A DNA stretch of 52,279 bases. Source: an uncultured Erysipelotrichaceae bacterium (GTDB lineage: Bacteria > Bacillota_I > Bacilli_A > Erysipelotrichales > Erysipelotrichaceae). The stretch is taken from NCBI GenBank assembly GCA_927435855.1, contig CAKMJZ010000029.1, forward strand, positions 1-52,279. The letters are read 5' to 3'. Below the pieces are notes generated by a model that saw only the letters and a program-made list of their open reading frames with translations, did not search any database and was not told the origin of the DNA. The stretch's first letter is position 1. Each line of letters starts with the position of its first letter. This document shows positions 10,903-39,461 of this stretch, piece after piece. The translations under genes and the position numbers were made by a program.

Positions 10903-10939
10903 CTGATAAAAACAAAAATAGCTAAAAAAGCCTAAGTTT

Positions 10940-11010
10940 GTTTTGTAGTCTCCTCATTTAAGGTAAGGAGGTAGAGACTTGCGGACCTTATTTCCACAGA
11001 TATACAAAAC
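10940..11010 (-). promoter_or_regulatory. Purine riboswitch aptamer, guanine type
   Basis: The 71-nt minus-strand sequence folds as the purine three-way junction. P1 pairs GTTTTGTA with TACAAAAC. P2 is a TGTGGA/TCCGCA stem with a seven-base loop ending GG. P3 is CTCCTTA/TGAGGAG with loop CCTTAAA, whose C residues can kiss the GG of P2. J1/2 TATC and J2/3 AGTCTCTACC match the family, with one change at the flipped-out U48 position. In J3/1 (ACTAC) the specificity base is C, which predicts guanine or hypoxanthine rather than adenine binding. It lies 38 bases upstream of the terminator before purE. Confidence 0.93.
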
Positions 11011-11020
11011 GATAATGATT

Positions 11021-11053
11021 AAACAAAAAACATAGGTGCGTAAACGACCTATG
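11021..11053 (-). terminator. Second intrinsic terminator just upstream of the aptamer
   Basis: On the minus strand CATAGGT and ACCTATG form a perfect 7-bp stem, extended by CG/CG around TTTA, followed by GTTTTTTG. It ends only about 11 bases before the aptamer's P1. That leaves almost no room for a promoter between them, so pur transcripts started upstream must pass it. It could close the upstream transcript or act as an attenuator. Confidence 0.7.
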
Positions 11054-13359: not shown

Positions 13360-13414
13360 AAAGTTGATTAACTTTTGGTGCGACGACGATGCTCGTGGTA
13401 GACACGTTCAGCTC
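13360..13414. repeat. Left direct repeat: 3' end of a SIS-isomerase gene
   Basis: These 55 bases match 28930-28985 at about 80% by eye. Identical blocks are AAAGTTGATTA and CGACGACGATGCTC. Both copies lie in the same orientation, 15.6 kb apart, and enclose the signalling island. No integrase is present. Confidence 0.7.
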
Positions 13415-13415
13415 T
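13368..13415 (-). pseudogene. C-terminal remnant of a SIS sugar isomerase gene
   Basis: The minus strand reads ERVYHEHRRRTKS and stop, closely matching EGVYREHRRRTNR, the last residues of the intact SIS protein encoded at 28938-29699. Only about 16 codons remain. Upstream sequence is replaced by the end of the signalling island. It overlaps the tail of the GyrI pseudogene on the other strand. Confidence 0.65.
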
Positions 13416-13437
13416 ACTTTTAACCGGACTACAATAA

Positions 13438-15648
13438 CTATATCTCATATCCTTTTTCTTTAAAAAGCTTAACACAAATATCAACTACTTCCGCATCATA
13501 TTTAGTTCCCCGATGGAGCAATATCTCTTTTAGAGCAGCGTCAATGCCCAAGGCTGCCCTATATGGCCGATGTGAGGTCATAGCTTCCACGGTGTCAGCA
13601 ACTGCCAGAATTCTGCTTTCTAGAATGATTGCATCGCCTGATACCCCCTTAGGGTAGCCTGAACCATCTAATCTTTCGTGATGCTGATAAATCATTGTAT
13701 GGATTTCTTTAGGAAAATCAATTTCTTTAACTACATTATAGCTTTCTTCCACATGGGTTTGTATTATTTGATACTCTAAGTGAGTAATTTTGCCAGGCTT
13801 GTTCAGAATTTCTGTAGGGACAAAAAACTTTCCAACATCATGGAGTAGACTACCAAAGGAAAGATTTCTAATTTTTTCCTTCGTGAGTCCCAGTTCTTTA
13901 CCTATAGCGCAGGACAAATCTCCAACCTTTTTTTGATGTCCTGCAGTGTATACATCTCTAAGTTCACCGATTTTTGAGATTGCATTCACCGATTGAAGCA
14001 GTCTTTTTTCTAGTTCGTTCTCGGTCTGTTTGCTTTCGGTGATGTCCTGAGCTGCACCCCAAAGTGAATTAATATTACCTTCAAAGTCCGTTTCAGATTC
14101 ACCTCGTGCCCAAATCCATCCATTCGAACCGTCATTGGTTACAGTCTCCAGTTCTAGTTCATAAGGGTTACCGGATGTCCTTGTATAATCTAGGGCCGTC
14201 GCTAGTCTATCCCAACTTTCCGGAGTGAATAATTTCATGTGTTCAGTGTATGGCGGTGGTGGAATTGTTGGATCAAATCCATACATTTTGTAAAGTTCCT
14301 TTGACCACACCACTTGATTTGTCGCCAAATCCAATCTCCAAGTTCCTAATTGCGCAATTCGCTGTGTCTCCAATAAATCTTTAAAATTCTGATTAAACCG
14401 TTCTTCACTATTTTTGCGTTCAGTGATGTCTGCAATATAACCATGCCACAAAACGCTGCCATCTTCCAATTTCTCCGGTTTCGCTATTCCACTAACCCAA
14501 CGTTCACCTTGCTTTGGTAATATCACTCTATATTCATCTTTCCAGTTCTCTAAGGTTCTTGACGATTCTAAGATTCCGTCCATCACGCGATTGTAATCAT
14601 CTGGATGAAATCTAGACAACACTTTTGAAGCGTCTTCTATTACTTCCTCCGGTGTGACTTCATAAACATGCCAAATCGCGCTTGAAGTATAAGGGAAATA
14701 GTTTCTACCATCTGGATGATAGCGATACTGATATATCATACCTGGGACTTGCTCTGGAAGCTTTTCAAGCAAAATATTTTGCTCTACAATTTTTTCTTCA
14801 ACCAGTTTCTTCTCTGTGATATCCCGACTCACTCCCTGAAATCCAATAAACTTTCCGTTCTCGTCGCGCAAACAAGATGAATGCACGGAAACCCAAATAA
14901 CGCTTCCATCTGCTCGATAGTGTTCAATTTCAAAGATTCGCGACCTGTTTTTATCGCTCTTGGGATCTTTCTCTATTTCCAATTCTTCCAAAAAAACTTG
15001 ATGCGCTATTTTCAGAGAATCAGGCGTAAACCTTTCATCAACCGCTTTTCTTATATGAGCTTCTGGTGACTCGCCAAGCATTTTTTCTACAGATGGGCTA
15101 ATGTAAGTAGTCCTCATGTCCATGTCTGCCATCCATACGACATCTGTAACATTCTCCGCAATTTGTCGGAACTTCGCCTCGCTTTTGACTAGCTCCCGTG
15201 TCTTTTCCTCAAGCAGAGTTGCGAGCCGTTCGCTAACATTCTTATTCTCAATATTGGCCTCACTGATTTTAAACATCGCACGAATCTGGGCAGTCAATTC
15301 GCTTTCATCAATTGGTTTAGATAGAAATGCGTCCGCACCGGATTCTAATGCCTTAATACGGGTTGCCTTATCGCTTTTAATCGCTGTGACAAATACCACA
15401 GGAATATCGCGTAACTTTTTATTGGCTTTGAGTTTTCGACAAGTCTGGTACCCATCCATTTCAGGCATAATTATGTCAAGAAGAATCACATCTGGTTCTT
15501 CTTTTTCCGCAATATCCAATCCTTTCTGCCCAGTAACAGCAGTTAGCACGATAGCTTTAGGAAAGGCTTCCCTGATCAGTGCATTCAAAATTGTCAGATT
15601 GTCTCTATTATCATCAATCGCCAAGATTTTTTTAATCCTATTTTCCAT
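13438..15648 (-). CDS. REC-PAS-PAS-PAS-HD-GYP response regulator, predicted c-di-GMP phosphodiesterase
   Basis: Residues 6-125 form a receiver domain with the phospho-acceptor Asp in VILLDIIMPEMDG and the Lys in FLSKPID. A short coiled coil follows, then three PAS/PAC repeats (about 155-285, 295-415, 425-545). The HD-GYP domain (555-730) has an intact LLHDVGK and HHERLDGSGYP, so c-di-GMP hydrolysis is expected. The protein is soluble, 736 residues. It starts 11 bases inside the end of the hybrid kinase, with AGAGG upstream. The kinase is therefore its likely phosphodonor. Its HD-GYP part is a mosaic relative of the two other copies in the window. Confidence 0.9.
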   Translation of the reverse strand: MENRIKKILAIDDNRDNLTILNALIREAFPKAIVLTAVTGQKGLDIAEKEEPDVILLDIIMPEMDGYQTCRKLKANKKLRDIPVVFVTAIKSDKATRIKALESGADAFLSKPIDESELTAQIRAMFKISEANIENKNVSERLATLLEEKTRELVKSEAKFRQIAENVTDVVWMADMDMRTTYISPSVEKMLGESPEAHIRKAVDERFTPDSLKIAHQVFLEELEIEKDPKSDKNRSRIFEIEHYRADGSVIWVSVHSSCLRDENGKFIGFQGVSRDITEKKLVEEKIVEQNILLEKLPEQVPGMIYQYRYHPDGRNYFPYTSSAIWHVYEVTPEEVIEDASKVLSRFHPDDYNRVMDGILESSRTLENWKDEYRVILPKQGERWVSGIAKPEKLEDGSVLWHGYIADITERKNSEERFNQNFKDLLETQRIAQLGTWRLDLATNQVVWSKELYKMYGFDPTIPPPPYTEHMKLFTPESWDRLATALDYTRTSGNPYELELETVTNDGSNGWIWARGESETDFEGNINSLWGAAQDITESKQTENELEKRLLQSVNAISKIGELRDVYTAGHQKKVGDLSCAIGKELGLTKEKIRNLSFGSLLHDVGKFFVPTEILNKPGKITHLEYQIIQTHVEESYNVVKEIDFPKEIHTMIYQHHERLDGSGYPKGVSGDAIILESRILAVADTVEAMTSHRPYRAALGIDAALKEILLHRGTKYDAEVVDICVKLFKEKGYEI

Positions 15649-18607
15649 AAAGCACCTCTTGTATCACCTTGAAGAACTCTTTTGCGATAATTGGTTTAGC
15701 AATATACGCATCAAAGCCATATGAAAGAATGGCTTCGCGATCATGTGTCATGGCACTGGCTGTCATAGCAATAACAGGAATGTCTTGTAATTGTGTCATT
15801 GTTCTAATTTGTTGAAACGCTTCTATGCCACTGATATCAGGCAACGCAATATCCATTAAGATAAGGTTAGGAATGCATTTTAATGCCATCTCAAAACATT
15901 CATGCGCATTAACTGCTTCTAGAACGGTATAATGATCTTTAAGCAATGCTTTCACGGTAATCATGTTATCCGGATTATCTTCAACCACTAATACAACTGG
16001 TTTTCCTTCAATTGTCTGGTTTTTCTTCGGGAGCTCCTCATTTTTGATTTTTTCGAGATATAGCATATTTTTAATCGCCTTTTGAAGTTCCACACGTTTA
16101 ACATCGCCTTTTTGAATCAGTTGATGGATGTTGTTTCGTTTTAGAAATTTAAGCTCATCCTTGGTTATATGCTTAGCTGTCAGTATCAACACGGGGATAT
16201 GTGCTGTTTGCTCTGCATTTCGCAAGGTTTCCAACACTCTGAATCCGTCAACACCAGGCATCAACAGGTCGAGAATCATAGCATCTGGTATCATCTGGTC
16301 GATTATAGTAAACGCTTCCCCAGCATCACGGGCTATTTTCAACTGAAACCCCATATCCTCCACAAGGTCGCCAATTTGAATGATTGCTGATTCATTGTCT
16401 TCGACCAGCAATATTGACTTTTCAGAAAATTCATAATCACCAGGTACAAGTAATCGTTTTACTTCTACTTCATGCCCATCCGTTATTTCTTGTTCCTTCA
16501 TGGCATTTTCAGAAGTATACTGCAACGGAAGAGTAAGTGTAAATTCCGATCCTATACTTAAGGTGCTTTTTACTGAAATTGTGCCCCCAAGTAGATAAGA
16601 ATATTTTTTTGCAATAGCCAATCCCAGCCCAGCGCCACCATATCTTCTGGATGTACTGCCATCCGCCTGTCTGAATTCGTCAAAGATATAAGGCAGGTGC
16701 TCTTTAGAAATACCAATACCTGTATCTATCACTTTAACGATAATGTTGTTTTCATTTTGGCGGGATGATACTGTTACTTGACCCTTTTCGGTAAACTTCA
16801 CTGCATTGCTGATTAAGTTTTGCATGATATGTCTAAACATATCAACATCGCTGCTGATGATGATTGTATCTTCTGATTCATGAAGCAGCTTAATGTTTTG
16901 CTGCTGAGCATGTGGTTGTATCATAGCAATCACTTCGTCAATTGCATGATTAGCATTAAACCTGTTGATATCAACTTCTTCATACCCAGCTTCGATTCGG
17001 GAAATATCAAGAATATTATTAATCAATTTTAGGAGATTTTCTCCGTTGCGTTCAATAATTTCTAAATAGCTATACTCCTCTTTGGGGATTTGATTTACAA
17101 GTTTGCGGCTAAGAACTCCCGATAGGGCAATCACTGAATTGAGCGGTGTTCGCAACTCATGGCTCATGCTTGATAAGAAAGTGGTTTTAAGTCGGCTTGC
17201 ATCGTCCAACTGTATTTTTTGCATTTCCAACTCGGCATTTTGTTCTGTCAATTCATCGGTCTGCATTTCCAGCTCTTTTGCCTGCTGCTGAAGCTCAGCA
17301 TTGGTGCTTTGAAGCCTTTGTGAGAATTCATGAATCTTATTGTTTGCCAATATTGCGTTAAGACGTGCTGTGATTTCATTTTGAATACCTTTTATTAGTC
17401 GAACTGAACCAGGTGCATAACTTTTAATACTAGCCAATGAGATTATCGAAATAATCTCATCTCCATTTTTGACAGGGATAGTCATGATTTCTTTTGCTTG
17501 ATAATCACCGCTGACAGTTGAGAAAATAATCTGACTGTCAGAGGGAATATCGGTTAAATGTTGTACTGTTTCTGTCACAAGCGCTGTACCAAACTCACCT
17601 TCCTTAGCAGATGCAGAAAACGAGCATAGCTGGTCATGTTTGAAACCCGCAGATTCATAAGGTTCAAAGAATTGATTCTGTTCGTTTTTGAAGTAAACTG
17701 CCCCCATCTGTGAATTACTTTCTAGCATTAGTCCCTTAAGCAACTCTTGGCAGAACAAACGCAGAGAATCTTGATTTGTCATGATTGAGGATAAACTTAT
17801 AACGCTATCTCTATAATCTATTTCCGTTTCAATCGTGGTAGCCATAGTGTTAAACGCCTTCGAAAGCAAACCAATCTCATCAGTCGAATCATATTGTATT
17901 CTGGCATCATGCTTTCCTTGCTGAAATGCTTCAGTAGTAGTAGTTAACTCATTCAACGGAGGTAAGATCCCTTTTCTTAAAAGATAACTTATGCTAGATA
18001 ATAAGAGAAATACACCAAAGATTAATGCAGATAATTGCATCATATTGGCATTTCTCTGTTCTAGGGCGGTTTGATGAAACTCGTCGCCCTTGATAATTGC
18101 AAAATCACTAATATCATTCAGTTCGTCCTTGATCTTTTCTGCATGAATGCCTCCAATACCCGCACTGTTAACTCTTTCTTGTGCTTCTGTGATTTGACCC
18201 ATACGGAATAAACGGACAGTTTCTGCTCGAATGGTTTTCCATTGTGATAATGTAACCACCAGTTCATTTATATCATCTTTTGGACCAAGGAATCGATCGT
18301 AAAGTACATCCAGCTGCCGATTTATTTCCACTTCATAAGCATCAATTTCATTGATGTATTCGTCGGTTCTCTGCTGGTCATTTCCTAATACAAGCTGCAG
18401 CATATTATTGTGAATACGTAGAACATCGGCTTCAATTTCACCTACTGCTCTGCGAACTGTCAATGGATGCCTGTATAGATTTGAAGTGTTTTCCCATAAC
18501 GCATTCATAAAAAACACTGAGGTCAATGCAAGTATGGTCACGATCAAAAATATCGAACCCAGCCAGATATTTATTTGTTTAGAAATCTTTAGGTTTTTTA
18601 GTTTCAT
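15638..18607 (-). CDS. Membrane hybrid histidine kinase with two receiver domains
   Basis: The protein has 989 residues. TM segments at about 12-32 and 192-210 bracket a helical four-helix-bundle sensor of the MCP/CHASE3 kind. A HAMP domain (212-262), a GAF-like domain (265-420) and a coiled coil with repeated heptads (425-475) follow. The HisKA domain has the phospho-His in SSMSHELRTPLNS, and the ATPase domain has NLISNAVKF, DTGIGIS and GAGLGLAIAKKYS. Two receiver domains follow, with Asp in MILDLLMPGVDG and LILMDIALPDISG. GGAGG precedes the ATG, which overlaps the cheR stop (ATGA). A phosphorelay to the adjacent REC-HD-GYP protein is the likely route. Confidence 0.92.
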   Translation of the reverse strand: MKLKNLKISKQINIWLGSIFLIVTILALTSVFFMNALWENTSNLYRHPLTVRRAVGEIEADVLRIHNNMLQLVLGNDQQRTDEYINEIDAYEVEINRQLDVLYDRFLGPKDDINELVVTLSQWKTIRAETVRLFRMGQITEAQERVNSAGIGGIHAEKIKDELNDISDFAIIKGDEFHQTALEQRNANMMQLSALIFGVFLLLSSISYLLRKGILPPLNELTTTTEAFQQGKHDARIQYDSTDEIGLLSKAFNTMATTIETEIDYRDSVISLSSIMTNQDSLRLFCQELLKGLMLESNSQMGAVYFKNEQNQFFEPYESAGFKHDQLCSFSASAKEGEFGTALVTETVQHLTDIPSDSQIIFSTVSGDYQAKEIMTIPVKNGDEIISIISLASIKSYAPGSVRLIKGIQNEITARLNAILANNKIHEFSQRLQSTNAELQQQAKELEMQTDELTEQNAELEMQKIQLDDASRLKTTFLSSMSHELRTPLNSVIALSGVLSRKLVNQIPKEEYSYLEIIERNGENLLKLINNILDISRIEAGYEEVDINRFNANHAIDEVIAMIQPHAQQQNIKLLHESEDTIIISSDVDMFRHIMQNLISNAVKFTEKGQVTVSSRQNENNIIVKVIDTGIGISKEHLPYIFDEFRQADGSTSRRYGGAGLGLAIAKKYSYLLGGTISVKSTLSIGSEFTLTLPLQYTSENAMKEQEITDGHEVEVKRLLVPGDYEFSEKSILLVEDNESAIIQIGDLVEDMGFQLKIARDAGEAFTIIDQMIPDAMILDLLMPGVDGFRVLETLRNAEQTAHIPVLILTAKHITKDELKFLKRNNIHQLIQKGDVKRVELQKAIKNMLYLEKIKNEELPKKNQTIEGKPVVLVVEDNPDNMITVKALLKDHYTVLEAVNAHECFEMALKCIPNLILMDIALPDISGIEAFQQIRTMTQLQDIPVIAMTASAMTHDREAILSYGFDAYIAKPIIAKEFFKVIQEVLYGK

Positions 18608-19443
18608 TTCACACCTCCATGTTTTTTTTGAAAAATCGGCGATGGCGACGCAACAGTTAGCAAAGGGCTATGTTTTGCAACGGTCTGCCTTTCTGCTTCG
18701 CCAGTTATCAGATACCCCTGCTCAGACATAGAATTGATCAACTTATTCAGGATATACAGCTGAGAATCTGTTTTATAATAAAACAACACATTACAACAAA
18801 ATACCAGGTCAAAATTGCCAAAGATGCTCTCATGCGGATAGGCCGATCGGTTTTCGAGAAGATCATAAGTTGAAAAGCTTATTTGTTTTTTCAATCGATC
18901 ACAAACTGTATACGTTTCTTTTGTCTTCACAAAAAACTCCTTTATGTCTTTCATCCTGACATTTTGAATAGCTTCTTCAGTGTAGTTACCCTTTTCTGCC
19001 ACAGCCAGAGCTGATTTCGAAATGTCTGTTGCTATAATTCTATATCGCAAAGCTTGCTGTCGCTTCGCATTGATCTTCTCAACTAACATGGCTATGGAAT
19101 AAGCTTCTTGTCCAGTCGAGCATCCTGCTGACCAGATCCGAAGTTCACTATCTTCTGTCTTCTTTTCAATTAAACGTGGCAGAATCCATTGTTCCAAATG
19201 CGCATATGTGAGCGTGTTTCTAAAGAACTCAGTATAGTTGATATTCAGCGCATGGAAGAGATTTTGCGCTTCCACTAAATTCTTTGATAAATAGATTTCA
19301 TAGTCAGAAAACTTTTTAATTTCAATAGCTGTACATCGCTTTTCGATGGTTTGCTTAAGAAAAGAATAATCATACTGTGATACATCAAACCCGTAAACAC
19401 TATTCATCGTATGGACTATTGCTGATAAATCATCGACCATATG
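18604..19443 (-). CDS. CheR-type protein-glutamate methyltransferase (orphan)
   Basis: The protein has 279 residues from MVDDLSAIV. I chose this start because GAAGGAG lies just ahead of it. The open frame extends 11 codons upstream without a good site. The N-terminal helical CheR domain is followed by NYTEFFRN, the SAM-binding AGCSTGQEAYSIAML, IIATDISKSALA, and DLVFCCNVLFYY near the end, all standard for CheR. Chemotaxis CheR methylates receptor glutamates. Here there is no MCP, CheB, CheA or CheW, and the gene lies between a PAS-HD-GYP protein and a hybrid kinase. Its target is probably a sensor of this operon, but that is inference. Confidence 0.9.
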   Translation of the reverse strand, partial: HMVDDLSAIVHTMNSVYGFDVSQYDYSFLKQTIEKRCTAIEIKKFSDYEIYLSKNLVEAQNLFHALNINYTEFFRNTLTYAHLEQWILPRLIEKKTEDSELRIWSAGCSTGQEAYSIAMLVEKINAKRQQALRYRIIATDISKSALAVAEKGNYTEEAIQNVRMKDIKEFFVKTKETYTVCDRLKKQISFSTYDLLENRSAYPHESIFGNFDLVFCCNVLFYYKTDSQLYILNKLINSMSEQGYLITGEAERQTVAKHSPLLTVASPSPIFQKKHGGVK

Positions 19444-19465
19444 AACTCCTTCGTTCAATACAACT

Positions 19466-22198
19466 TTATTTTTCATAAAATTGAAATTTCTTTTCTCTAA
19501 ATAGTCTTATACATGCATCTACTACATCAGCATCAAATCTGGTGCCCTTATGAAGCTCGACTTCTTCCAACGCAACGTCAATGCCCCAAGCTGACCTATA
19601 TGGCCGATGCGAGCTCATAGCCTCTACGACGTCAGCGACTGCTAAAATTCTGCTTTCCAGAATGATTTCATCTCCCAATATTCCTTGGGGGTAGCCAGAA
19701 CCATCCAGTCTTTCGTGATGTTGATAGATCATGGTGTAGATTTCTTCAGGAAAATCAATCTCCTTTACTACATTGCAACTTTTCTCAACATGGGTTTGTA
19801 ATATTTTATACTCAAGATCAGACACTTTACCGGGTTTGTTCAGAATGTCTGAAGGGATATAGAACTTTCCAACATCAAGGAGTAGACCACCAAATAAAAG
19901 ATTTCTGATTTTTTCATCTGCGAGTCCCATTTCTCTACCTATAGCGCAGGACAAATCTGCAACCTTTTTTTGATGACTTGCAGTATATACATCCCTAAGC
20001 TCACCGATTTTTGAGATTGCATTAACCGATTGAAGCAGTCTATTTTCCAGTTCGTTTTGTTGCCATTCTAACTCTTTAGTGTAAGTTTTCAATGATTCTT
20101 CCGCCAGTTTGCGTTGAGTGACGTCCGATATAATTCCTCTCACACGGATTCCTTGCCCATTTTCATTGCGCTCAATGACTCGCCCATTCACTGAGAGCCA
20201 TCGGATGGTCGTATCGGGTAATACTACTCTAAAATCAAAAGAATAATCATTAGGTCCGCCCGGAGCCACAGAGTTCTGAATGAACTGATTTGAATACTCC
20301 CTGTCATCGGGGTGTGTTGCATTTTGGAAAGTAGTTAAGTCCCATCTCTCTTGTCGAGCCATGCCGTATAATCCGTCGTGATTCATGGAGCGAGACATTG
20401 TATTCGCTATGAAATCAAACTCCCAGATTGCCACATTAGACTGCTCCGTGGCTAATCGTATACGCTCCCCGCTGTCATGCAGTTGCTTTTCGGCCTGCTG
20501 CTGATCCTCCAGTATATTGACCAGGGCTCTTCGGTCGCGTTGAACCTGATCAAAGAGCATCCGCTGATCGGTTTCCGCAACCTTTCTCTCCGTGATATCC
20601 TGAATCATGCCAATGGATTGGATGATGTCGCCTGCGTCATCACGAACATTAACACATCGTTCATATACATGGCGAATTTCACCTGTGCTTTGTCGAAGGA
20701 TCCGGTGTTCAATCTCGTAGCTGTCGCTTTTTTCCCTCAACGAACGGGAATACCCCTCCTCCACCGCAGCCCGGTCGTCCGGGTAGATGAATTCAATAAA
20801 GGTCTCATAGGTAGCGGTAAACTCCTGCGGTTCGCACCCGAAAATACGGTAGGTCTCATCCGACCAGTACAGCTTGTTGGTGGTCAAATCAAGGTTCCAG
20901 CTTCCAATGTGGGCTAGCCTCTGGGACCGGGAAAGGAGTTCTTCGCTTTCAACAAGCTTAAGCTCTGTCAGCTTGCGCTCGGTGATGTTGGATATGGAAC
21001 CTGCCAAGATTTTAGTAAAACCTTTCTCATCTAGATAGCTTTTACCTCTATTTTGAATTAAGTTATAATTTCCCGATGGATTACTGGTTCGGTATACAAT
21101 ATCGAATGTACTCTCTTCACCACTTAAGCACGCCTCAAGGGCAAGCACTGATTGTTCATAGTCTTCTGTATGAATGGATTCTTTCTGTAAAATAGCATCA
21201 ATACCTTTGCCACCCTTTACATAACCATTGATTTCATCCCATTTGTCGGATGTGTAGATCTCATTTGTTATGATGTTCCATTCCCATAAAGCGTCATTGA
21301 CACTATCTAATGCAAGGGTATAACTCTCCTTAACTTTTTCGAGTACTTTCTTAGAAATAGCGAGTTGTTGATTGTTTTGATCCTTATTTATTAGTCTTAT
21401 CTGCGTCACAACTAAAAAGCCAATAATCAACAGGAATAAAAAGGTTGTTCCCGTTAAAAATCCGATTGTCGATGCCATCACATTGTCTTTCATTGAGACT
21501 TGAATCGTCCAAAAATTGTCTAGTATGGCAATATTATTGATATAGACGTGTCCCTTATGTTGTCCATCATATCCCCAAAATAGTTTCTCGTCATTATCAA
21601 TAAGACTAATATTATAATCCGTCATCATTTCATCATCAATGATGTTATTCAAGAAATTGTTAACGTTCATCACCACTACGACGAATCCGTTAAATTTCTC
21701 TTCAAAATAGAGCGGGTATCTGATAACAAGCCCTAAGAGGTCCTTAGAATCTTTGAGTACATAAGGTGCATTGGCGGTAACAATCTTATCCTTTATTGCT
21801 TTACGCACAGCTTCTTCAACTTCTGGTCTACCCAACAAAGTTGCGCCAAGCGTATACTTATATGTATCAGGGTAAACCATAACGGTCGTGGTCTCTTTAT
21901 CCTTGAGTTGAACATAAATGATTTCGGGACTTACTTTAAGATAGTGTTTTGCGAAAATCTCAAACTTCGTTACGTCTAAATCAGGATCTATCTCGTAATT
22001 GTAAGCAAACGAAGCTAATACGCCTTCACTGATATTGACGTCCACCTCTATAGCAAAGCCCAGTGTTTGCCCCATATTATTAACTTGATTTTGCAATTGC
22101 TTAGAGTTGTATTCTGCAAAAGAATGAACAAATAATAAAAACACAAAAAGTGTAAACACACTCTGCACTGCTATGATTTTAAAATGTTTTGCGGACAT
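19466..22198 (-). CDS. CHASE-PAS-PAS-PAS-HD-GYP membrane protein with degenerate HD motif
   Basis: The protein has 910 residues. TM segments at about 8-28 and 245-265 frame an extracytoplasmic CHASE-type ligand domain (YVQLKDKETTTVMVYPD). Three PAS/PAC repeats follow (about 290-405, 415-540, 570-700), then an HD-GYP domain (720-905). The GYP motif HHERLDGSGYP is intact, but the metal-binding His of the HD pair is replaced: LLLDVGK instead of LLHDVGK (Leu774, codon CTT at 19877-19879 versus CAT in the sisters). HD-GYP hydrolysis is therefore doubtful. It may act as a c-di-GMP receptor. CAGGAG precedes the ATG. The PAS-coding stretch near 20.5-20.95 kb looks GC-richer than the rest. Confidence 0.9.
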   Translation of the reverse strand: MSAKHFKIIAVQSVFTLFVFLLFVHSFAEYNSKQLQNQVNNMGQTLGFAIEVDVNISEGVLASFAYNYEIDPDLDVTKFEIFAKHYLKVSPEIIYVQLKDKETTTVMVYPDTYKYTLGATLLGRPEVEEAVRKAIKDKIVTANAPYVLKDSKDLLGLVIRYPLYFEEKFNGFVVVVMNVNNFLNNIIDDEMMTDYNISLIDNDEKLFWGYDGQHKGHVYINNIAILDNFWTIQVSMKDNVMASTIGFLTGTTFLFLLIIGFLVVTQIRLINKDQNNQQLAISKKVLEKVKESYTLALDSVNDALWEWNIITNEIYTSDKWDEINGYVKGGKGIDAILQKESIHTEDYEQSVLALEACLSGEESTFDIVYRTSNPSGNYNLIQNRGKSYLDEKGFTKILAGSISNITERKLTELKLVESEELLSRSQRLAHIGSWNLDLTTNKLYWSDETYRIFGCEPQEFTATYETFIEFIYPDDRAAVEEGYSRSLREKSDSYEIEHRILRQSTGEIRHVYERCVNVRDDAGDIIQSIGMIQDITERKVAETDQRMLFDQVQRDRRALVNILEDQQQAEKQLHDSGERIRLATEQSNVAIWEFDFIANTMSRSMNHDGLYGMARQERWDLTTFQNATHPDDREYSNQFIQNSVAPGGPNDYSFDFRVVLPDTTIRWLSVNGRVIERNENGQGIRVRGIISDVTQRKLAEESLKTYTKELEWQQNELENRLLQSVNAISKIGELRDVYTASHQKKVADLSCAIGREMGLADEKIRNLLFGGLLLDVGKFYIPSDILNKPGKVSDLEYKILQTHVEKSCNVVKEIDFPEEIYTMIYQHHERLDGSGYPQGILGDEIILESRILAVADVVEAMSSHRPYRSAWGIDVALEEVELHKGTRFDADVVDACIRLFREKKFQFYEK
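19615..19846. repeat. HD-GYP coding repeat, copy B
   Basis: This stretch aligns without gaps to 26030-26261. It has two perfectly identical runs of 61 bases (19615-19675) and 63 bases (19784-19846), with more divergence between and outside them. Long identical runs inside otherwise diverged paralogues suggest gene conversion. Confidence 0.85.
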
Positions 22199-22227
22199 GA
22201 TTCACACTCCTGTCTTTAACTATCGGG

Positions 22228-23727
22228 TCAGTTCTGATGGCTTTCAGTGCTCGGATATCGCGGTGGCTGCCCGGCCTGCACTAACAGTGCGTTGACCTCC
22301 CGCTTCAGCTCGATGGCCCGGTCCTCCCTGTCAAGCATCACCGCATGCCACCGTTGCAACTCGCGAATCTGCTCAGCAATTTTCTCTCCAGTCTGCTTGC
22401 GTTCGGTATAGTCGTTCGTGATTGCCATGATTTCCAGAACATCACCTTTATCATCAAACAATGGTACATAGTTAATTCTAAGATTGCGGAGATCGATATT
22501 GCGGAAGTAAAGTTCGGTATCCAAGGATTGTACTTCCCCGGTATTGAGCGATTCCAGAATCATGGGCATATAGACTTGGTATACCTCCGGTGGCCAAACT
22601 TCTTCTTCTCGCTTCCCGATAAAATCAGACACCGGCCTGCCGGTAGCTCTCTGCATGGCAGCATTGATATATTGTATTTTCAGCTCTTTATCGTAAATCA
22701 CCACTGCATCCGGAATGTTATCTAGAGCACGCTTAAAACGATTTTCGCTCTGCCTAAGAGACTCATACACCCGCTTGTGCTCGGTAATATCCACCATTGT
22801 CACTATGAAAGCCAGCAGATTCCCATCTGTGTCGCCCATCTTTGTGACGCTGATATCTGACCAGACATACGAGTTGTTTTTGTGGATATAACGCTTTTCA
22901 AACCGTACCGCATTCTTTTCTCCGCGAATCAGGGGGGCCAGCCTTTCATTGATCGAACCGATATCCTCGGGTGGGGTCAACTCCTGCCAGGTTTTGCCGC
23001 GCAAATCCTCCGGAGTGTAGCCCAACATGTCACAGAAAGCTTGGTTGACATCGATCTCACCTGTGGGTTGCGTCACAGATTTACCGACGTTTTCTACTAC
23101 AAAAAGACTTCGGTACCTCGCTTCACTCTCCTTCAATGCGTTGATTGCTTCTTCACGCTTGTATCGGGAGGACAGCAGCCAACCAAGGACGATGGTGGCG
23201 ATGGGATAGACTAGCAGCACCGGCAGCCCGATACCTTCGAGCACTCTCATTGCAGCTTCCCACGGCAACGTCAGCATCAATGTCAGCATGACCAAATGCA
23301 CTACTACGCCAAAGCTGTAAAGTTCACGAAAGGAGATGTCTTCAATTCGTCCCCTCCGATAATGGTGCCACAATATGCCTATACTACCGGTAGCTAGAAT
23401 TACACCTATTCCAGTCCAGATGCCGGTGCCGCCAAGCGAGAAGCGATAGATTGCTGCCATAACCATAGCGATTACAGTGGGAATCATTCCGAGGAATAAG
23501 CCGCTTAGGGACAACAGCACGGATCGCGTATCAAATACAATGCCGGTTTCGAGTTGGAATGCAAACAGCATGAGGCCGATGCAGAGTCCACCTAGTAGCA
23601 CACCCGCCATAACCTGACGCTCCCATTGGTCTTGCAACGGCTTCCGGCTAGTGACAAGATCTAAAACGACCATCATTGCCAACAACAAGGCGGCGTTTTG
23701 AATTAGAGTAATCAGAACGATAACCAT
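22228..23727 (-). CDS. 5TM (LytS/YhcK-type) receptor with two PAS domains and no output domain
   Basis: The protein has 499 residues. The first 190 hold five to six hydrophobic segments typical of the 5TMR-LYT sensor (GIVFDTRSVLLSLSGLFLG). Two PAS/PAC domains follow (about 200-325 and 330-450), then a short coiled coil and a tail ending PPRYPSTESHQN. This tail type is often seen on PAS proteins of other phyla. There is no kinase, GGDEF, EAL or HD-GYP domain, so it must pass its signal to a partner, perhaps the CHASE-HD-GYP protein 29 bases downstream. The coding sequence looks clearly GC-richer than its neighbours. AAGGGAG precedes the ATG. Confidence 0.85.
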   Translation of the reverse strand: MVIVLITLIQNAALLLAMMVVLDLVTSRKPLQDQWERQVMAGVLLGGLCIGLMLFAFQLETGIVFDTRSVLLSLSGLFLGMIPTVIAMVMAAIYRFSLGGTGIWTGIGVILATGSIGILWHHYRRGRIEDISFRELYSFGVVVHLVMLTLMLTLPWEAAMRVLEGIGLPVLLVYPIATIVLGWLLSSRYKREEAINALKESEARYRSLFVVENVGKSVTQPTGEIDVNQAFCDMLGYTPEDLRGKTWQELTPPEDIGSINERLAPLIRGEKNAVRFEKRYIHKNNSYVWSDISVTKMGDTDGNLLAFIVTMVDITEHKRVYESLRQSENRFKRALDNIPDAVVIYDKELKIQYINAAMQRATGRPVSDFIGKREEEVWPPEVYQVYMPMILESLNTGEVQSLDTELYFRNIDLRNLRINYVPLFDDKGDVLEIMAITNDYTERKQTGEKIAEQIRELQRWHAVMLDREDRAIELKREVNALLVQAGQPPRYPSTESHQN

Positions 23728-23878
23728 TTTTTAGCTCCCTTCTCAACAACTTGGTCAATAATATATGATTTCAATGGAATGATATATTGATTATTTCAAA
23801 AGTTTTTCTTGTATGAACAACCGATTTGGGTCATTTTCTTTTCGCTTCACACCTTTTATACATAACTTGTCAGCATAA

Positions 23879-23981
23879 TCTCGGTACTTTTATAAATTAG
23901 CCATAGGTTTTCAGTTTTCTTAGCACTTTCGATTCTCATAACACAAAGTAACTGCACAGACCTGAGTGATACGACCTATTT
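23879..23981 (-). ncRNA. Conserved 103-nt leader element, copy A
   Basis: This sequence lies in the transcribed leader of the 5TM-PAS gene. It is the same length as the element at 28475-28577, with about 15 mismatches and no gaps by hand alignment. Possible stems are ATAGGT/ACCTAT and an inner ACTTT/AAAGT, with the strictly shared core AGAATCGAAAGTG. It matches no riboswitch class I can recall. In particular it lacks the GGGCAAACC and GACGCAAAGCC of the c-di-GMP-I type. Confidence 0.5.
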
Positions 23982-24052
23982 GTCTTCTGCTTTTCGAACA
24001 ATTGTGTTCACTGTTTATTCAACTTTTACCCCAATAATTTATATTTTCTTTT

Positions 24053-24081
24053 ATTGTATTCTATATTTAAAACAACATCAA
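24053..24081 (-). promoter_or_regulatory. Promoter of the 5TM-PAS operon
   Basis: On the minus strand TTGATG, 17 bases, then TACAAT. The same boxes and spacing occur in the paralogous leader at 28650-28678. The rest of the 23728-24312 gap holds the 103-nt element and about 150 bases of AT-rich leader with no gene. Confidence 0.7.
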
Positions 24082-24291
24082 TATAAAAGGTTAATTGAAA
24101 AAGATAAACTAGAATTCTAAGAGTTAGTTCTGTTTTATTTTCTTAAGCAGAAATAAGTCTTGTGACAAAGGATTGTTTGATGAAGATATTTTTAGATTTT
24201 CAAAGCTCTATGCATTAGTATTAGCACCGAGAAATCTTTATGCAGAGCTCCAATTTTTCCGATTCCTCTCGGATACCGTCAAATAAAACCA

Positions 24292-24320
24292 TCAGTTAAC
24301 ACAAACTTCGCTCTAACTGA
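24292..24320 (-). terminator. Weak terminator at the end of the GGDEF gene
   Basis: On the minus strand TCAGTTA and TAACTGA pair across a 15-base loop, followed by TGGTTTTATTT. The stem overlaps the stop codon, and the T tract is interrupted. Confidence 0.4.
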
Positions 24321-25743
24321 CTACCTTATTCTTCCCTATTTCCTTGGCTCTATACATGGCTTGGTCCGTTCGGTACATCAACTGATCCTGGGATTGACCA
24401 GAAACATATTCTGATAACCCGATGCTCACCGTCAGTTGATAAGCCGACAGTTCCTCGTCCTTTTCAATCCTGTTTCGGAGCTCCTCCAACATCCCTTCCG
24501 CCCCAACAATGTCCTGATCGATCATCCCGGCGAACTCGTCGCCCCCAAGCCTGTAAATGGTGCTTTTCTTCAAAAACTCTCTAGCCACATTAGCCGTTCT
24601 TGCCAGTGCCTCATCCCCCGCAATATGTCCGTGGGCATCATTTAACTTCTTGAAATTGTCGATGTCGAAAAGGAACAGACAAAAGGGCTTCCCGGTTTTG
24701 TCCGCCTCCGCCAGCTTTTGGTTCAAATCCTCGCCCATGGCCCTTCTGTTGAAAAGTCCCGTGAGCACATCCGTTGTTGCAAGCTGCATAATTCGACGCT
24801 GGTAGCGTCTTGTGAGCATTACCGTGATGAAAACCACCATTAGCACAACGACAATGACAATCGCCAAGTTGACAAGCTGCTGTCGAAACAGCGCGGAATG
24901 GAAGGCTTCTGGGTTATTTTTCACCACAATATACCATTCCAAATCATTGATGTACTTAGTGAAAACATAATTATTATTGATGCTACCTTCGAGCCTGAGC
25001 ACCTCAAAATCTTCCTTATTATCTAGAATGCGCTCCTTCATGCCCGGATTGTCCAACTGGGAAAAATAATTAATGTTCTCAATGACCGAATCATCTGTGG
25101 CCACCTGAACAAACCCTTTGGTGTCTATCAGAAGAATGTCCAGTTGAAGCAAATTGTTGTAATACGCTAGAATGCTTTGTATCTCACGCATTTCCAAGCC
25201 TACCCCAATGACGCTGGCATTCGTGTCTCCCACATTCAGGATTTTACTGTTGATGAAAATAGAAAGGGTGTCTTCGTTTGCCTGATCTGTGTCTACATCC
25301 AGGGCGTAGTCCTTCCCGGATTCGACAAACTCATAAAACCAGACATCATGGCTGTCCTCGGTGGATATCTTTTTCAGAATGCCTTCTGTATTGTAATAAT
25401 TTCCCGAATTTCCTGAAACCAGAAAAACCGAACTGTACCCGTATTTATCTTTAATCCCCTTTAGATAACGAGTTATGGTTTCCAGATCTTGTTTATCTTC
25501 CTCCGCCAACCAAGACTTGACAAAGGAATCGTTAGCCATGGTCAGGCTCACAAAAATCGGCTTGGTCAGTTCGTTCTGAATCTCGGCGAAAATGGTCATA
25601 GCCGTTAGTTTCGTGATATTTTCCGCATCCTTCTGGATGATGTTATTGCTGGCTTTATAGTTAAGAACACTGGTTATAAAAAAGCCAAGAACAATAACTC
25701 CAACAATTAAGATGATGAATCGGATATTCGTTTTTTTATTCAT
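24313..25743 (-). CDS. dCache-type membrane diguanylate cyclase (GGDEF)
   Basis: The protein has 476 residues from MNKKTNIRF. TM segments at about 8-28 and 285-308 enclose an extracytoplasmic dCache-like sensor. The C-terminal GGDEF domain (315-475) has TTDVLTGLFNRRAMG, DIDNFKKLNDAHGHIAGD and an intact YRLGGDEFAGM, so synthesis of c-di-GMP is expected. No RxxD inhibitory site precedes GGDEF. The start ATG has only a weak ribosome site. It lies inside the end of a short ORF with a strong site, suggesting coupled translation. It is oriented with the HD-GYP gene upstream. Confidence 0.9.
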   Translation of the reverse strand: MNKKTNIRFIILIVGVIVLGFFITSVLNYKASNNIIQKDAENITKLTAMTIFAEIQNELTKPIFVSLTMANDSFVKSWLAEEDKQDLETITRYLKGIKDKYGYSSVFLVSGNSGNYYNTEGILKKISTEDSHDVWFYEFVESGKDYALDVDTDQANEDTLSIFINSKILNVGDTNASVIGVGLEMREIQSILAYYNNLLQLDILLIDTKGFVQVATDDSVIENINYFSQLDNPGMKERILDNKEDFEVLRLEGSINNNYVFTKYINDLEWYIVVKNNPEAFHSALFRQQLVNLAIVIVVVLMVVFITVMLTRRYQRRIMQLATTDVLTGLFNRRAMGEDLNQKLAEADKTGKPFCLFLFDIDNFKKLNDAHGHIAGDEALARTANVAREFLKKSTIYRLGGDEFAGMIDQDIVGAEGMLEELRNRIEKDEELSAYQLTVSIGLSEYVSGQSQDQLMYRTDQAMYRAKEIGKNKVVS

Positions 25744-25810
25744 CGAACACACTCAATTCATGACCAGAGTCAATGAGATCATACCCCCTTGCCAATACCT
25801 CCATGGTCAT
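25736..25810 (-). CDS. 24-residue upstream ORF coupled to the GGDEF gene
   Basis: ATG ACC ATG GAG GTA starts a 24-codon frame (MTMEVLARGYDLIDSGHE...) preceded by GGAGGAG at good distance. Its last codons GAT GAA TAA contain the ATG of the GGDEF gene. Ribosomes ending here could restart on the cyclase, whose own site is weak. No homologue is recognised. Confidence 0.5.
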   Translation of the reverse strand: MTMEVLARGYDLIDSGHELSVFDE

Positions 25811-25889
25811 CTACTCCTCCATTTCTAATTTCTTTATCTTTCTTTACTTCATTATATTTATCTGTTTTTTACCATCCAGTATACGATGA

Positions 25890-28430
25890 CTAAAATGTTA
25901 ATCCATCTTCTTTAAAAAGCTTAACACAAATATCAACAACTTCCGCATCATATTTAGTTCCCCGGTGGAGCAATATCTCTTTTAGAGCAGCGTCAATGCC
26001 AAAGGCTGCCCTATATGGCCGGTGTGAGGTCATAGCCTCTACGACGTCAGCGACTGCTAAAATTCTGCTTTCCAGAATGATTTCATCTCCTGATAATCCT
26101 TGAGGGTAGCCTGAGCCATCCAATCTTTCATGATGTTGATAAACCATAGTATGGATTTCTTTAGGAAAATCAATCTCCTTTACTACATTGTAGCTTTCCT
26201 CAACATGGGTTTGTAATATTTTATACTCAAGATCAGACACTTTACCGGGTTTGTTCAGAATATCTGAAGGGACAAAAAACTTTCCAACATCATGAAGTAG
26301 ACCCCCATATGATAGATTACTGATCTTTTCATCAGCCAGTCCCATTTCTCTCCCTATGGAAAAGGCCAACTCCGCAACCCTTTTTTGATGTCCTGCAGTG
26401 TATACATCCCTAAGCTCGCCGATTTTTGAGATTGCATTAACCGATTGATGCAATCTTTTTTCCAGATCTTTTCGTTGATGCTCTAGCTCTTCAGCGAACC
26501 TTTGCAATGATTCTTCCGCCAGTTTGCGCTGGGTGATGTCGCGAAAAGACCATACGCGACCTATGACCTTAGATTCTATTAATAAAGGACGCGACAGCCG
26601 CTCAAACACGCGACCGTCATCAAAATTTATTGCGTCAAAAATCTCTTTATCGCTACTGTAAATTTCTTGAACTTTCTGTAAAAAGCCTTCCGGATCAGAC
26701 AACTGATCGAGAATATGCTTCAGTAGGATTGAGTCGTCACCGATTTCCATGACATCTGAAGGAATTCGCCATAATTTTGAAAAGTGTTGATTAGAATAAA
26801 GCAACTTTTTATCTTTCCCAATTGCTAGAATACCGTCAGCTGTAGCGTTTAGAACAGCCTGAAGAGAAGCTTCACTTTCAATCAGTGCATCCTCCGCCAG
26901 CTTGAGCTCGGTGATGTCAGTACCAATGCTTAAGATGGCAGGTTTTCCAGACCATTCAATCTTTCTAGCGATTATATGCGAAGGAATTGTTGATCCGTCT
27001 TTCCTTATATGCTTAGCTTCGAACTCAGTTTCACCTTTTTCTTCAATCTCTTTCATACGGCAGGAAACCATTTCAGCACTTTCGGGTGCATTAACTTGTT
27101 GTATATTCATACCCATGAATTCATCTTTCTCATAACCCAGCAATTTGCAAGTTCGTTCATTGATGAATAAAAACCTTCCCTCAAAATCATGAACCACGAT
27201 CGCACTGGGTGCAATATCAGCGATCTTAGCCAACCTTTCAATTTGCTCTTCGGCCAGTTTACGCTCGGTGATGTTCTCATGCGCGATAACCACGCGCCTG
27301 GGACTATCGCTCTTGAATGGCGTGACACGTCCTAAAAACCAGCGTTGTTCATTCGGAGAATGGCAAGGATACTCAAGTTCGAAGGACGGGCGTTTACCTG
27401 AAAGCACCTCCCGGATGCCTTGGGCAAAAAAGCCGGCCTCCTCCGAATCTTCCCCCTGTGCGTTGTCACATACCGCGAGGTAGTTGCACCCTTCGGAAAC
27501 AGTACTGTGTTCGATATTGTTACGCTCTGCGAAATCTCGGTATGCCTTGTTCGTGAGAATGATTTCACCACCCTCGTTGATTACCACGATGTGGGACAAC
27601 AATCCGTCCAGCGTGTGTCTGATGAACTGTTCCGATACCTGCAGAGCCTCTTCGGCCTGCTTGCGTACGGTGATGTCCCTGGCAATTCCCTCGATGGCTA
27701 CCGGGATACCATCCTCATTAATAAGGAGGTTGTTTCTCTGTTCTGTCCAGATCACTTGGCCATCTTTGCGTAACCAGCGTAGGGTAAGGGGTTCCCCTGA
27801 AGGTATTTCACCACGGCCTGCTTTCTCAATCAGATGGTAGTCCTCTGGGTGAACCATTTTCATGCCTAGGTCAGGGTCTGCATAATGCTCTTCGGGGGTG
27901 TACCCGGTGATGTCGCTTACTGCAGGACTAACATACTCAAAATGGCGTTCCGGGACTAGGTTGATGCGATAAATAATATCCTTGGCGTTCTCTGCCAGCC
28001 TGCGGTAACGGGATTCGCTCTTCTGGAACGCTTCAGTTAGTTTTTGAAGTTCATTAATCTGCCGTCGCGCATTTGACATATCAGAGAAAATAGTTATAAA
28101 ATACCCTTTTTGGGGAGAATAGGCAGTCACTCTATACCAGCGATTCAAAGGTTCTGAAAACTGCTCAAACTCTTTCTTACTACCCTTTAAGGCAATTTCA
28201 CCGTAAAGAGCAATCCAGTCAAATTCACTTTCACTGATTTCAGGCAGCACTTTCGTAATTGGTTTGCCAGTGATGTCTGCACCCTTCAGTCCAGTTAATT
28301 CTTCGAATACCTCATTTACCTCGACAAACACGTAATCACACGGGGTACCCATTTCATCGCAAATAATCTTGTGATAAGCATATCCCATCGGAAGTTGATT
28401 CATAAGCTGCTTATAAAAACCCTCACTCAT
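25890..28430 (-). CDS. Soluble multi-PAS HD-GYP protein, predicted c-di-GMP phosphodiesterase
   Basis: The protein has 846 residues and no TM segment. Five PAS/PAC repeats lie at about 1-120, 130-260, 268-390, 395-510 and 515-640, several with the ITERKLAEE linker. The HD-GYP domain (655-840) has an intact LLHDVGK and HHERLDGSGYP. Its last 60 codons resemble the REC-HD-GYP copy at 13438, while its middle resembles the CHASE-HD-GYP copy at 19466. The promoter and the 103-nt leader element lie upstream. It probably lowers c-di-GMP in response to small-molecule or redox cues. Confidence 0.9.
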   Translation of the reverse strand: MSEGFYKQLMNQLPMGYAYHKIICDEMGTPCDYVFVEVNEVFEELTGLKGADITGKPITKVLPEISESEFDWIALYGEIALKGSKKEFEQFSEPLNRWYRVTAYSPQKGYFITIFSDMSNARRQINELQKLTEAFQKSESRYRRLAENAKDIIYRINLVPERHFEYVSPAVSDITGYTPEEHYADPDLGMKMVHPEDYHLIEKAGRGEIPSGEPLTLRWLRKDGQVIWTEQRNNLLINEDGIPVAIEGIARDITVRKQAEEALQVSEQFIRHTLDGLLSHIVVINEGGEIILTNKAYRDFAERNNIEHSTVSEGCNYLAVCDNAQGEDSEEAGFFAQGIREVLSGKRPSFELEYPCHSPNEQRWFLGRVTPFKSDSPRRVVIAHENITERKLAEEQIERLAKIADIAPSAIVVHDFEGRFLFINERTCKLLGYEKDEFMGMNIQQVNAPESAEMVSCRMKEIEEKGETEFEAKHIRKDGSTIPSHIIARKIEWSGKPAILSIGTDITELKLAEDALIESEASLQAVLNATADGILAIGKDKKLLYSNQHFSKLWRIPSDVMEIGDDSILLKHILDQLSDPEGFLQKVQEIYSSDKEIFDAINFDDGRVFERLSRPLLIESKVIGRVWSFRDITQRKLAEESLQRFAEELEHQRKDLEKRLHQSVNAISKIGELRDVYTAGHQKRVAELAFSIGREMGLADEKISNLSYGGLLHDVGKFFVPSDILNKPGKVSDLEYKILQTHVEESYNVVKEIDFPKEIHTMVYQHHERLDGSGYPQGLSGDEIILESRILAVADVVEAMTSHRPYRAAFGIDAALKEILLHRGTKYDAEVVDICVKLFKEDGLTF
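26030..26261. repeat. HD-GYP coding repeat, copy C
   Basis: This is the partner of 19615-19846: gap-free, with identical runs of 61 and 63 bases. The flanking part at 25908-26010 instead follows the copy at 13456-13550 almost base for base. Confidence 0.85.
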
Positions 28431-28474
28431 TAGGCATTACCCCTCTCATTTAGATTTTCTTTTATCAATAGGCT

Positions 28475-28577
28475 TCTCGGCATCTTTCGGAATCAGCCAT
28501 AGGTTTGCAGTTCTCTTAACACTTTCGATTCTTGTATCACAAAGTAACTGCACAGTCCTGAGTTATACGACCTATTT
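28475..28577 (-). ncRNA. Conserved 103-nt leader element, copy B
   Basis: This is the partner of the element at 23879-23981, in the leader of the multi-PAS HD-GYP gene and about 70 nt after the predicted transcription start. Stems ATAGGT/ACCTAT, GCAGTT/AACTGC and ACTTT/AAAGT can form nested. The GCAGTT/AACTGC stem loses one pair in copy A. Confidence 0.5.
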
Positions 28578-28649
28578 GTCTGCTGATTATTGTACAATTA
28601 TGTTCCACTTGCATTTACTTCTAGACCACATTATTCTATAATTAATTCT

Positions 28650-28678
28650 ATTGTATTCTTTATATCGAACAACATCAA
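28650..28678 (-). promoter_or_regulatory. Promoter of the multi-PAS HD-GYP gene
   Basis: On the minus strand TTGATG, 17 bases, then TACAAT, identical to the boxes at 24053-24081. It gives a leader of about 210 nt. The 28431-28937 gap holds this promoter, the leader element, the terminator of the next operon and the repeated SIS 3' end. Confidence 0.7.
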
Positions 28679-28799
28679 TGTAAATAGCATATTATACTAT
28701 TTAGTCGACCTTTTTCATCCGGTCAAACTGGTAATAAAGATTTAAAACTAACTTGGTTATATATAATTGGCTTTGATAGCCCTGCTTGCCAGTCTAAAG

Positions 28800-28826
28800 A
28801 AAAAGTGCGAGATTGAATAATCGCAC
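28800..28826 (-). terminator. Terminator of the glycyl-radical/corrinoid operon
   Basis: On the minus strand GTGCGA and TCGCAC form a 6-bp stem with a 10-base loop, followed by TTTTTC. It lies 112 bases past the SIS stop. Confidence 0.75.
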
Positions 28827-28929
28827 CAGTATACTATCCTTCTAAACTAACTTTTTTCATCCCAAAGACTATGTCTGTTTATCACAACACTACTGTTATC
28901 CTCCTATACAATCTCCATTCATTGTCAAT

Positions 28930-28985
28930 AAAGTTGATTAGCGGTTGGTACGACGACGATGCTCACGATACACACCTTCAAAGCT
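28930..28985. repeat. Right direct repeat: 3' end of the intact SIS gene
   Basis: This is the partner of 13360-13414. Here it spans the stop and last 15 codons of a complete SIS gene. Confidence 0.7.
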
Positions 28986-29699
28986 CTCCTTCGCCTCTTC
29001 AACACCCACAACCTGAGCACTTGTCAGAACATAGGGCGGCTGACCTTTTTCGGTCAGTAATTGTGCGACACGCACTTTAATCATATTAACAATCACAGAA
29101 TTAGCAATCGTTGATATCGGACCGACCGGATATTTCAAACCTTCTATTCTAATCGCGCTATCGCCCACCGGCACACAGGTATCAATCACTATATCCGCCA
29201 CATCATATAATTTTTGCTTGGTCGAATGCTTGCTTGGAGCTTTACCGCTGTTCTTCACACCGGTAATCGCAACGACCGGCACTCCCAGTGCCTTTGCCTC
29301 AATACCCATATCAATGACGACATTACCATTACCTGAGGTTGAAAAAAGTAAGAAAACATCTTGAGGTTTGACGATGAAATTCTTAATGATCTGCTTGGCA
29401 AAGCCTTCGACATTCTCCAAAAACATGGCCTGAGAAAGTCCGTTGGCACCTACGACATTGTGATAATAGGTGGTTGATAGTTCAACGATCGGATAAAAAC
29501 CAGCGAAACTGCCATAGCGCGGAAACATTTCCTCTACGCCCATGCGCGAATGACCGGAACCATACACATACACCAATCCATCCGCAGCTATACAATCCGC
29601 AAACATTTGTGACACCTTTTCTATCGTCTCACTTTGGGTTGCTTCGATTTGATTCATCACATCGATAGCGATGTCGAAATATTCTTTCGATACATTCAT
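28938..29699 (-). CDS. SIS-domain sugar-phosphate isomerase-like protein (UPF0309 type)
   Basis: The protein has 253 residues. The SIS fold is seen in GLVYVYGSGHSRMGVEEMF and FLLFSTSGNGNVVIDMGIEAK, with Ser/Thr clusters that bind sugar phosphates. The C-terminal half (PVGPISTIANSVIVNM) fits the UPF0309 group, whose substrate is not established. AGGAG precedes the ATG. It is the last gene of the operon containing the glycyl radical enzyme, so a sugar- or polyol-phosphate intermediate is likely in that pathway. Its 3' end is duplicated at 13360. Confidence 0.8.
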   Translation of the reverse strand: MNVSKEYFDIAIDVMNQIEATQSETIEKVSQMFADCIAADGLVYVYGSGHSRMGVEEMFPRYGSFAGFYPIVELSTTYYHNVVGANGLSQAMFLENVEGFAKQIIKNFIVKPQDVFLLFSTSGNGNVVIDMGIEAKALGVPVVAITGVKNSGKAPSKHSTKQKLYDVADIVIDTCVPVGDSAIRIEGLKYPVGPISTIANSVIVNMIKVRVAQLLTEKGQPPYVLTSAQVVGVEEAKESFEGVYREHRRRTNR

Positions 29700-38711: not shown

Positions 38712-39461
38712 TTATTTGTGAACGTGTTTACTGCGTTCGGCGTTTCGCCAGTTATCCTGATAACCGCTAAGTAAATCAACATAGCGTTTGGCCGTCAAGT
38801 GCGGACGCGTAATCGCACCGCCAACAACAACGGCATGTGCTCCTAAGAAAATACATTTCATCGCATCTTCCGGTGTATAAATATGACCTTCCATAAAGAC
38901 ATAAGCATCTTCATTCAACTCCCGACAAAACTCACCGAACATCCGATAGTCCGCACCTTCGATGTGAGCTGTTTCTTTTGTGTAACCATACAACGTCGGA
39001 GCTACGATGTCCGCACCTAATCTAACGGCTTCCCGAGCTTCTTCAATGGTAGATACATCCGCAAATACCAGGACATCCGGATAAGCTTCTTTTAATTTTG
39101 GTAGTAATTCAATGGCTCTATTGCCTTCATGATTGATTTGAAAGGTACAGTCCAAAGCAATGATATCTGCTCCTGCTTCAATCAGCTGTTTACAAGCGTC
39201 CAGTGTCGGCGTAATGAAGACATCTGTGTTTTCAAACCACATTTTATACAGCGCAATGATGGGTAAATCGATTTCACTTTTGATCAAACGGATATCACGT
39301 GGCGAATTCGCCCGGATACCGACAGCTCCAGCCCACAAGGCTGCTCTGGCCATAACCAAAACGATATCATCGGTGTAAATCGGTTCATCCGGATATGCCT
39401 GACAGGAAACAATCAGCCCACCCTTCATCTTTTCAATAATTTCACTTTTTCTTCTTGGCAT
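38712..39461 (-). CDS. nanE: NanE-like N-acylmannosamine-6-phosphate 2-epimerase homologue, copy 1
   Basis: The protein has 249 residues from MPRRKSEIIEKMKGG. That start is chosen for AAGGAG seven bases before it. The family hallmarks GGLIVSCQA, GAVGIRAN, the catalytic Lys in IIALYKMW, the catalytic Glu in VFMEGHIYTPEDA and GGAITRP are present. The block that usually reads D-A-T-x-R-x-R-P reads DCTFQINHEG, so the sugar pocket differs. No nanA, nanK, nagA or nagB is near. It is a monocistronic unit with its own promoter and terminator between the formaldehyde-type and corrinoid operons. The substrate is probably another 2-epimerisable sugar phosphate. Confidence 0.82.
   Translation of the reverse strand: MPRRKSEIIEKMKGGLIVSCQAYPDEPIYTDDIVLVMARAALWAGAVGIRANSPRDIRLIKSEIDLPIIALYKMWFENTDVFITPTLDACKQLIEAGADIIALDCTFQINHEGNRAIELLPKLKEAYPDVLVFADVSTIEEAREAVRLGADIVAPTLYGYTKETAHIEGADYRMFGEFCRELNEDAYVFMEGHIYTPEDAMKCIFLGAHAVVVGGAITRPHLTAKRYVDLLSGYQDNWRNAERSKHVHK

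Follow-up and report, generated by a model that had tools for sequence, protein, structure and literature searches.

Two kinds of described system come closest to the locus analysed here: the small proteins of the HTH_17 (PF12728) and excisionase (TIGR01764) families of Bacillota, and the c-di-GMP-I and c-di-GMP-II riboswitches. The window, which is the whole stretch of 52,279 nt that was analysed, contains two similar leader elements (copies A and B) on the minus strand. Like the c-di-GMP riboswitches, these elements are located in 5′ leaders and have genes of c-di-GMP enzymes nearby, but no covariance model matched them, even with the threshold relaxed to E 10, and they have no fold in common with those riboswitches; the first-pass annotation had likewise seen no match to the c-di-GMP-I/II classes. 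With the HTH_17/excisionase genes, the two copies share the reading frame, a similar length, a similar promoter layout, and the pattern R..VQ.LC...RIE....LWLIPKDAEKP.D.RK. They differ from these genes in having in-frame stops, one lost codon, no coding constraint, and no Pfam or NCBIfam match. Each leader element is therefore probably the remnant of an HTH_17/excisionase-like gene of approximately 55-65 codons, whose own promoter was retained and which was duplicated together with a signalling block; from the sequence comparisons below, we put the probability of this reading at about 0.93. Homology to a protein gene accounts for the leader sequence.

Self-BLAST of the window returned the promoter and the element as a minus-strand repeat of about 212 nt with 80% identity (E 2e-44), a length and a score far above chance expectation. 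In its full extent, the element covers 24009-23879 in copy A and 28605-28475 in copy B, which align without gaps over 131 nt at 84% identity. The first-pass annotation had described a 103-nt element with about 15 mismatches and no indels, and the core was indeed found as 102 ungapped nucleotides with about 14 mismatches, in which the core said to be invariant, AGAATCGAAAGTG, was identical between the copies. The promoters that it had placed ahead of both genes were located as well, each with a 17-nt spacer on the minus strand: TTGATG (24081-24076) and TACAAT (24058-24053) at 24053..24081 for copy A, and TTGATG (28678-28673) and TACAAT (28655-28650) at 28650..28678 for copy B. Beyond A and B, no further copy of the element was found in the 1.57 Mb searched of its own genome, which is about 70% complete, and the exact core patterns had no match in genome contigs or viral contigs. 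Matches to a loose 15-base pattern were background only, with a count equal to that of the reversed-pattern control. Weak DNA matches in two genomes (G049 and G053) lay within or next to unrelated genes, and of the loci with promoter-like matches (G000:C11, G001, G004, and G005:C24), the two inspected had the match at a coding gene's end. A literature search around the repeat found nothing specific.

Pfam analysis of the minus-strand genes behind the elements showed that copy A precedes a 499-aa gene with a 5TMR-LYT and two PAS domains (22228..23727), whereas copy B precedes an 846-aa multi-PAS and HD-GYP gene (25890..28430). The first-pass annotation had spoken of c-di-GMP sensors, but the copy-A gene has no c-di-GMP domain of its own.

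The protein origin of the elements was examined using a profile of 16 intact HTH proteins, from which the window sequence was excluded. The profile matched copy B at 28446..28604 (minus strand; 51.0 bits, E 4.5e-15) and copy A at 23877..24008 in the same frame (minus strand; 21.3 bits, E 8.8e-6). The next best match in the rest of the window had 5.2 bits (E 0.89), and the maximum among 2000 shuffled leaders read in six frames was 15.8 bits. Weak matches near other 5TMR-LYT genes (L132 and L133; 8 bits) were inside the shuffle range, and a match on G002:C16 (E 0.18) was taken as chance. With stops written as asterisks, copy B reads NIIVQ*SADK*VV*LRTVQLLCDTRIESVKRTANLWLIPKDAEKPIDKRKSK* and copy A reads NTIVRKAEDK*VVSLRSVQLLCVMRIESAKKTENLWLI, also given as NTIVRKAEDK*VVSLRSVQLLCVMRIESAKKTENLWLIYKSTE; one example of an intact relative reads MFEYMTVQEAATKWDISERRIQTLCSENRIEGVVRLSRVWLIPKDAKKPIDRRKKKNEK. 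A and B resemble the intact proteins across the HTH domain and also in the WLIPKDAEKP tail, the similarity extending through almost the entire frame.

The copy-B read-through was 51-54% identical to intact 64-aa genes of other genera (E 7e-12 to 2e-11; the best at 54%, 7.4e-12). It matched 59 of the 316 genomes of the order, its own included, at E<=0.01, and also recovered copy A with 64% identity (E 8.7e-12). Plasmid matches were present too, annotated as 'DNA-binding protein' or 'helix-turn-helix domain-containing protein'. Furthermore, when 273 genomes of the family were searched with a promoter-plus-leader model built from sequence only, with no assumption of a protein, the matches were weak and several of them fell on the starts of intact small HTH genes. 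The intact relatives scored near the cut-offs of Pfam HTH_17 and of the excisionase family in NCBIfam; some exceeded them and others fell slightly short, and neither remnant reached a model. No intact copy of the HTH gene was found in the same-genus genomes searched. Intact HTH genes stand directly upstream of varied genes, often regulators; named by eye from their sequences, these neighbours included response regulators, XRE-, MerR-, and LysR-like proteins, a DNA methyltransferase, and, in G179, a sensor kinase.

Neither copy retains an uninterrupted reading frame with a start codon. Copy B is interrupted by TAA (28589-28587), TAG (28574-28572), and TAA (28565-28563) before its terminal TGA (28448-28446), and copy A is interrupted by TAG (23978-23976) and becomes unrecognisable at its 3′ end past ...KSTE. 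Because of these in-frame stops, A and B are regarded as pseudogenes and not as working members of the family. In both copies a TAG occupies the position of a conserved Trp of the relatives, two further in-frame stops being present in B, and both lack one codon in comparison with the intact relatives. By parsimony, the shared TAG and the shared missing codon suggest that the gene was broken before it was duplicated. The differences between A and B fell on the three codon positions as 6/12/5, and coding constraint on the remnants was rejected since pN (0.186) exceeded pS (0.118).

Several intact HTH genes carry TTGTTC (or TTATTC) about 11 nt ahead of a TATAAT-like box. The corresponding arrangement is TTGTTC-N11-TACAAT in copy B and TTGTTT-N11-TACAAT in copy A, and owing to this likeness to TTGTTC-N11-TATAAT, judged by pattern and eye, the leader promoter is read as the HTH gene's own. 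As a separate observation, several intact small HTH genes (L084-L112) have TTCG-N6/7-CGA just upstream of the TATAAT box, which is possibly a candidate operator for self-regulation.

The two remnants are part of a roughly 15-kb signalling block (13360-28991), which contains three HD-GYP genes, GGDEF, CheR, a hybrid kinase, and PAS sensors. Pfam and self-BLAST located three HD-GYP regions on the minus strand with 81-86% identity among them: 25908..26540 in the copy-B gene (84% to 19493-20125 and 86% to 13449-14019), 19493..20125 in a CHASE-PAS-HD-GYP gene (22198..19466), and 13449..14019 in a response regulator-PAS-HD-GYP gene (15648..13438). According to Pfam, self-BLAST, and locus comparison, the left edge of the block is the 3′ end of a SIS-domain gene (28930..28991, minus strand; intact gene 29699..28938). 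A second copy of this 3′ end forms the right edge (13360..13419, minus strand; 80.6% to 28930-28991). In two relatives (G001 and G002) the site is empty, the SIS 3′ end being directly joined to sequence corresponding to window position 13380 and below. In the window and in a third genome, G005 (JAUYTU010000038.1, an Erysipelotrichaceae MAG of the same genus), a signalling block separates the two, and at its far edge the SIS 3′ end occurs again, in a shorter form in G005. Because of this repetition, insertion is preferred over deletion. No integrase was found among eight proteins scanned with Pfam. The window also contains a second internal duplication (38724-39446 and 44225-44947; 74% over 723 nt).

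G005 carries a third copy of the element. As in the window, a promoter and remnant stand behind the same SIS gene and upstream of an HD-GYP gene; however, there is a single remnant lacking 43 nt, one HD-GYP gene of 479 aa, and a block of about 2 kb instead of 15 kb. The G005 remnant has the same promoter as A and B, a frameshifting 43-nt gap in the core, and a retained RIENLWLI*..KKPVDK. The N-terminus of the HD-GYP gene in G005 showed 87% protein identity to the window gene at 22198..19466, and its HD-GYP part showed 83% to the copy-B gene.

The two remnants are more similar to each other than are the stretches preceding them: A and B agreed at 97 of 112 positions in the remnant and at 25 of 45 positions between promoter and remnant (Fisher p 8e-5). 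Such a difference is not expected if the copies had merely decayed neutrally since a single duplication. The excess similarity of the remnant could be due to gene conversion between the copies, which the conversion test between A and B weakly suggests (p 0.07). The excess would also be accounted for if the transcript or DNA of the decayed HTH gene had taken on a function in the 5′ leaders of the two signalling operons, for example as an operator, a spacer, or an mRNA-stability element, and the promoters are retained in all three copies. However, in comparison with G005 the conservation of the remnant was not significantly above that of the untranslated stretch, the centre of the remnant is lost in G005, and gene conversion is the simpler cause; hence such recruitment appears unlikely.

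The first-pass annotation had favoured a structured regulatory RNA with shared stems. A riboswitch-like cis-regulatory RNA, acting on the downstream sensor genes in response to a small molecule, would fit the leader position, the invariant core, the 84% conservation without gaps, and the higher conservation of the body than of the stretch between promoter and body. Nevertheless, neither leader matched Rfam at gathering thresholds, and up to E 10 no match was found in the elements, the only two matches being chance ones outside them. The purine riboswitch at 10926-11027 (minus strand; 78.9 bits) was the only Rfam family found elsewhere in the window. The fold energies were similar to those of shuffled sequences (z +0.79 and -0.67), neither leader being unusually stable, and A and B differed in their minimum-energy folds, so that the shared stems were not confirmed. 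Between the copies, 23 base pairs of each fold were unchanged, because the letters themselves were unchanged, and 3 to 6 were broken in the other copy. There were no compensatory pairs, in a test of low power because only three sequences exist; with so few sequences, the fold comparison alone is weak evidence. In addition, 43 nt of the core are gone in G005, and the conserved letters correspond to residues of the HTH protein. A riboswitch-like function is accordingly very improbable. The other possibility raised at first, that a short repeat had accompanied a duplicated promoter, was right in direction: the unit is probably a broken HTH gene with its own promoter, inside a larger block. Just as improbable as the riboswitch is a short leader peptide still translated from a GTG-started frame of about 35 codons in copy B that ends just upstream of the HD-GYP gene. 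In A as well as in B the frame stays open once the final in-frame stop is passed, but pN exceeds pS between them, the C-terminus of copy A diverges, and the G005 copy is both frameshifted and interrupted by a stop.

Taken together, these findings suggest the following history for the remnants of the HTH gene. A signalling block with the broken HTH gene and its promoter at the front would have been inserted at the SIS 3′ end, and the block would then have been duplicated within the locus, the HTH gene being already broken. This duplication may have given rise to the two remnants and three HD-GYP genes of the window, of which the closest relative has one each. Transcription of the sensor genes behind the remnants would now come directly from the surviving promoters, and the dead coding sequence would be an inert 5′ untranslated region.

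The repeat is most probably ordinary genome decay and not a new RNA switch. A false riboswitch candidate is thereby removed, since a pseudogene that is duplicated along with its promoter can mimic a conserved structured leader, and for such leaders a read-through check against protein families should come before RNA modelling. The case also illustrates the growth of one Erysipelotrichaceae signalling locus via insertion and duplication.
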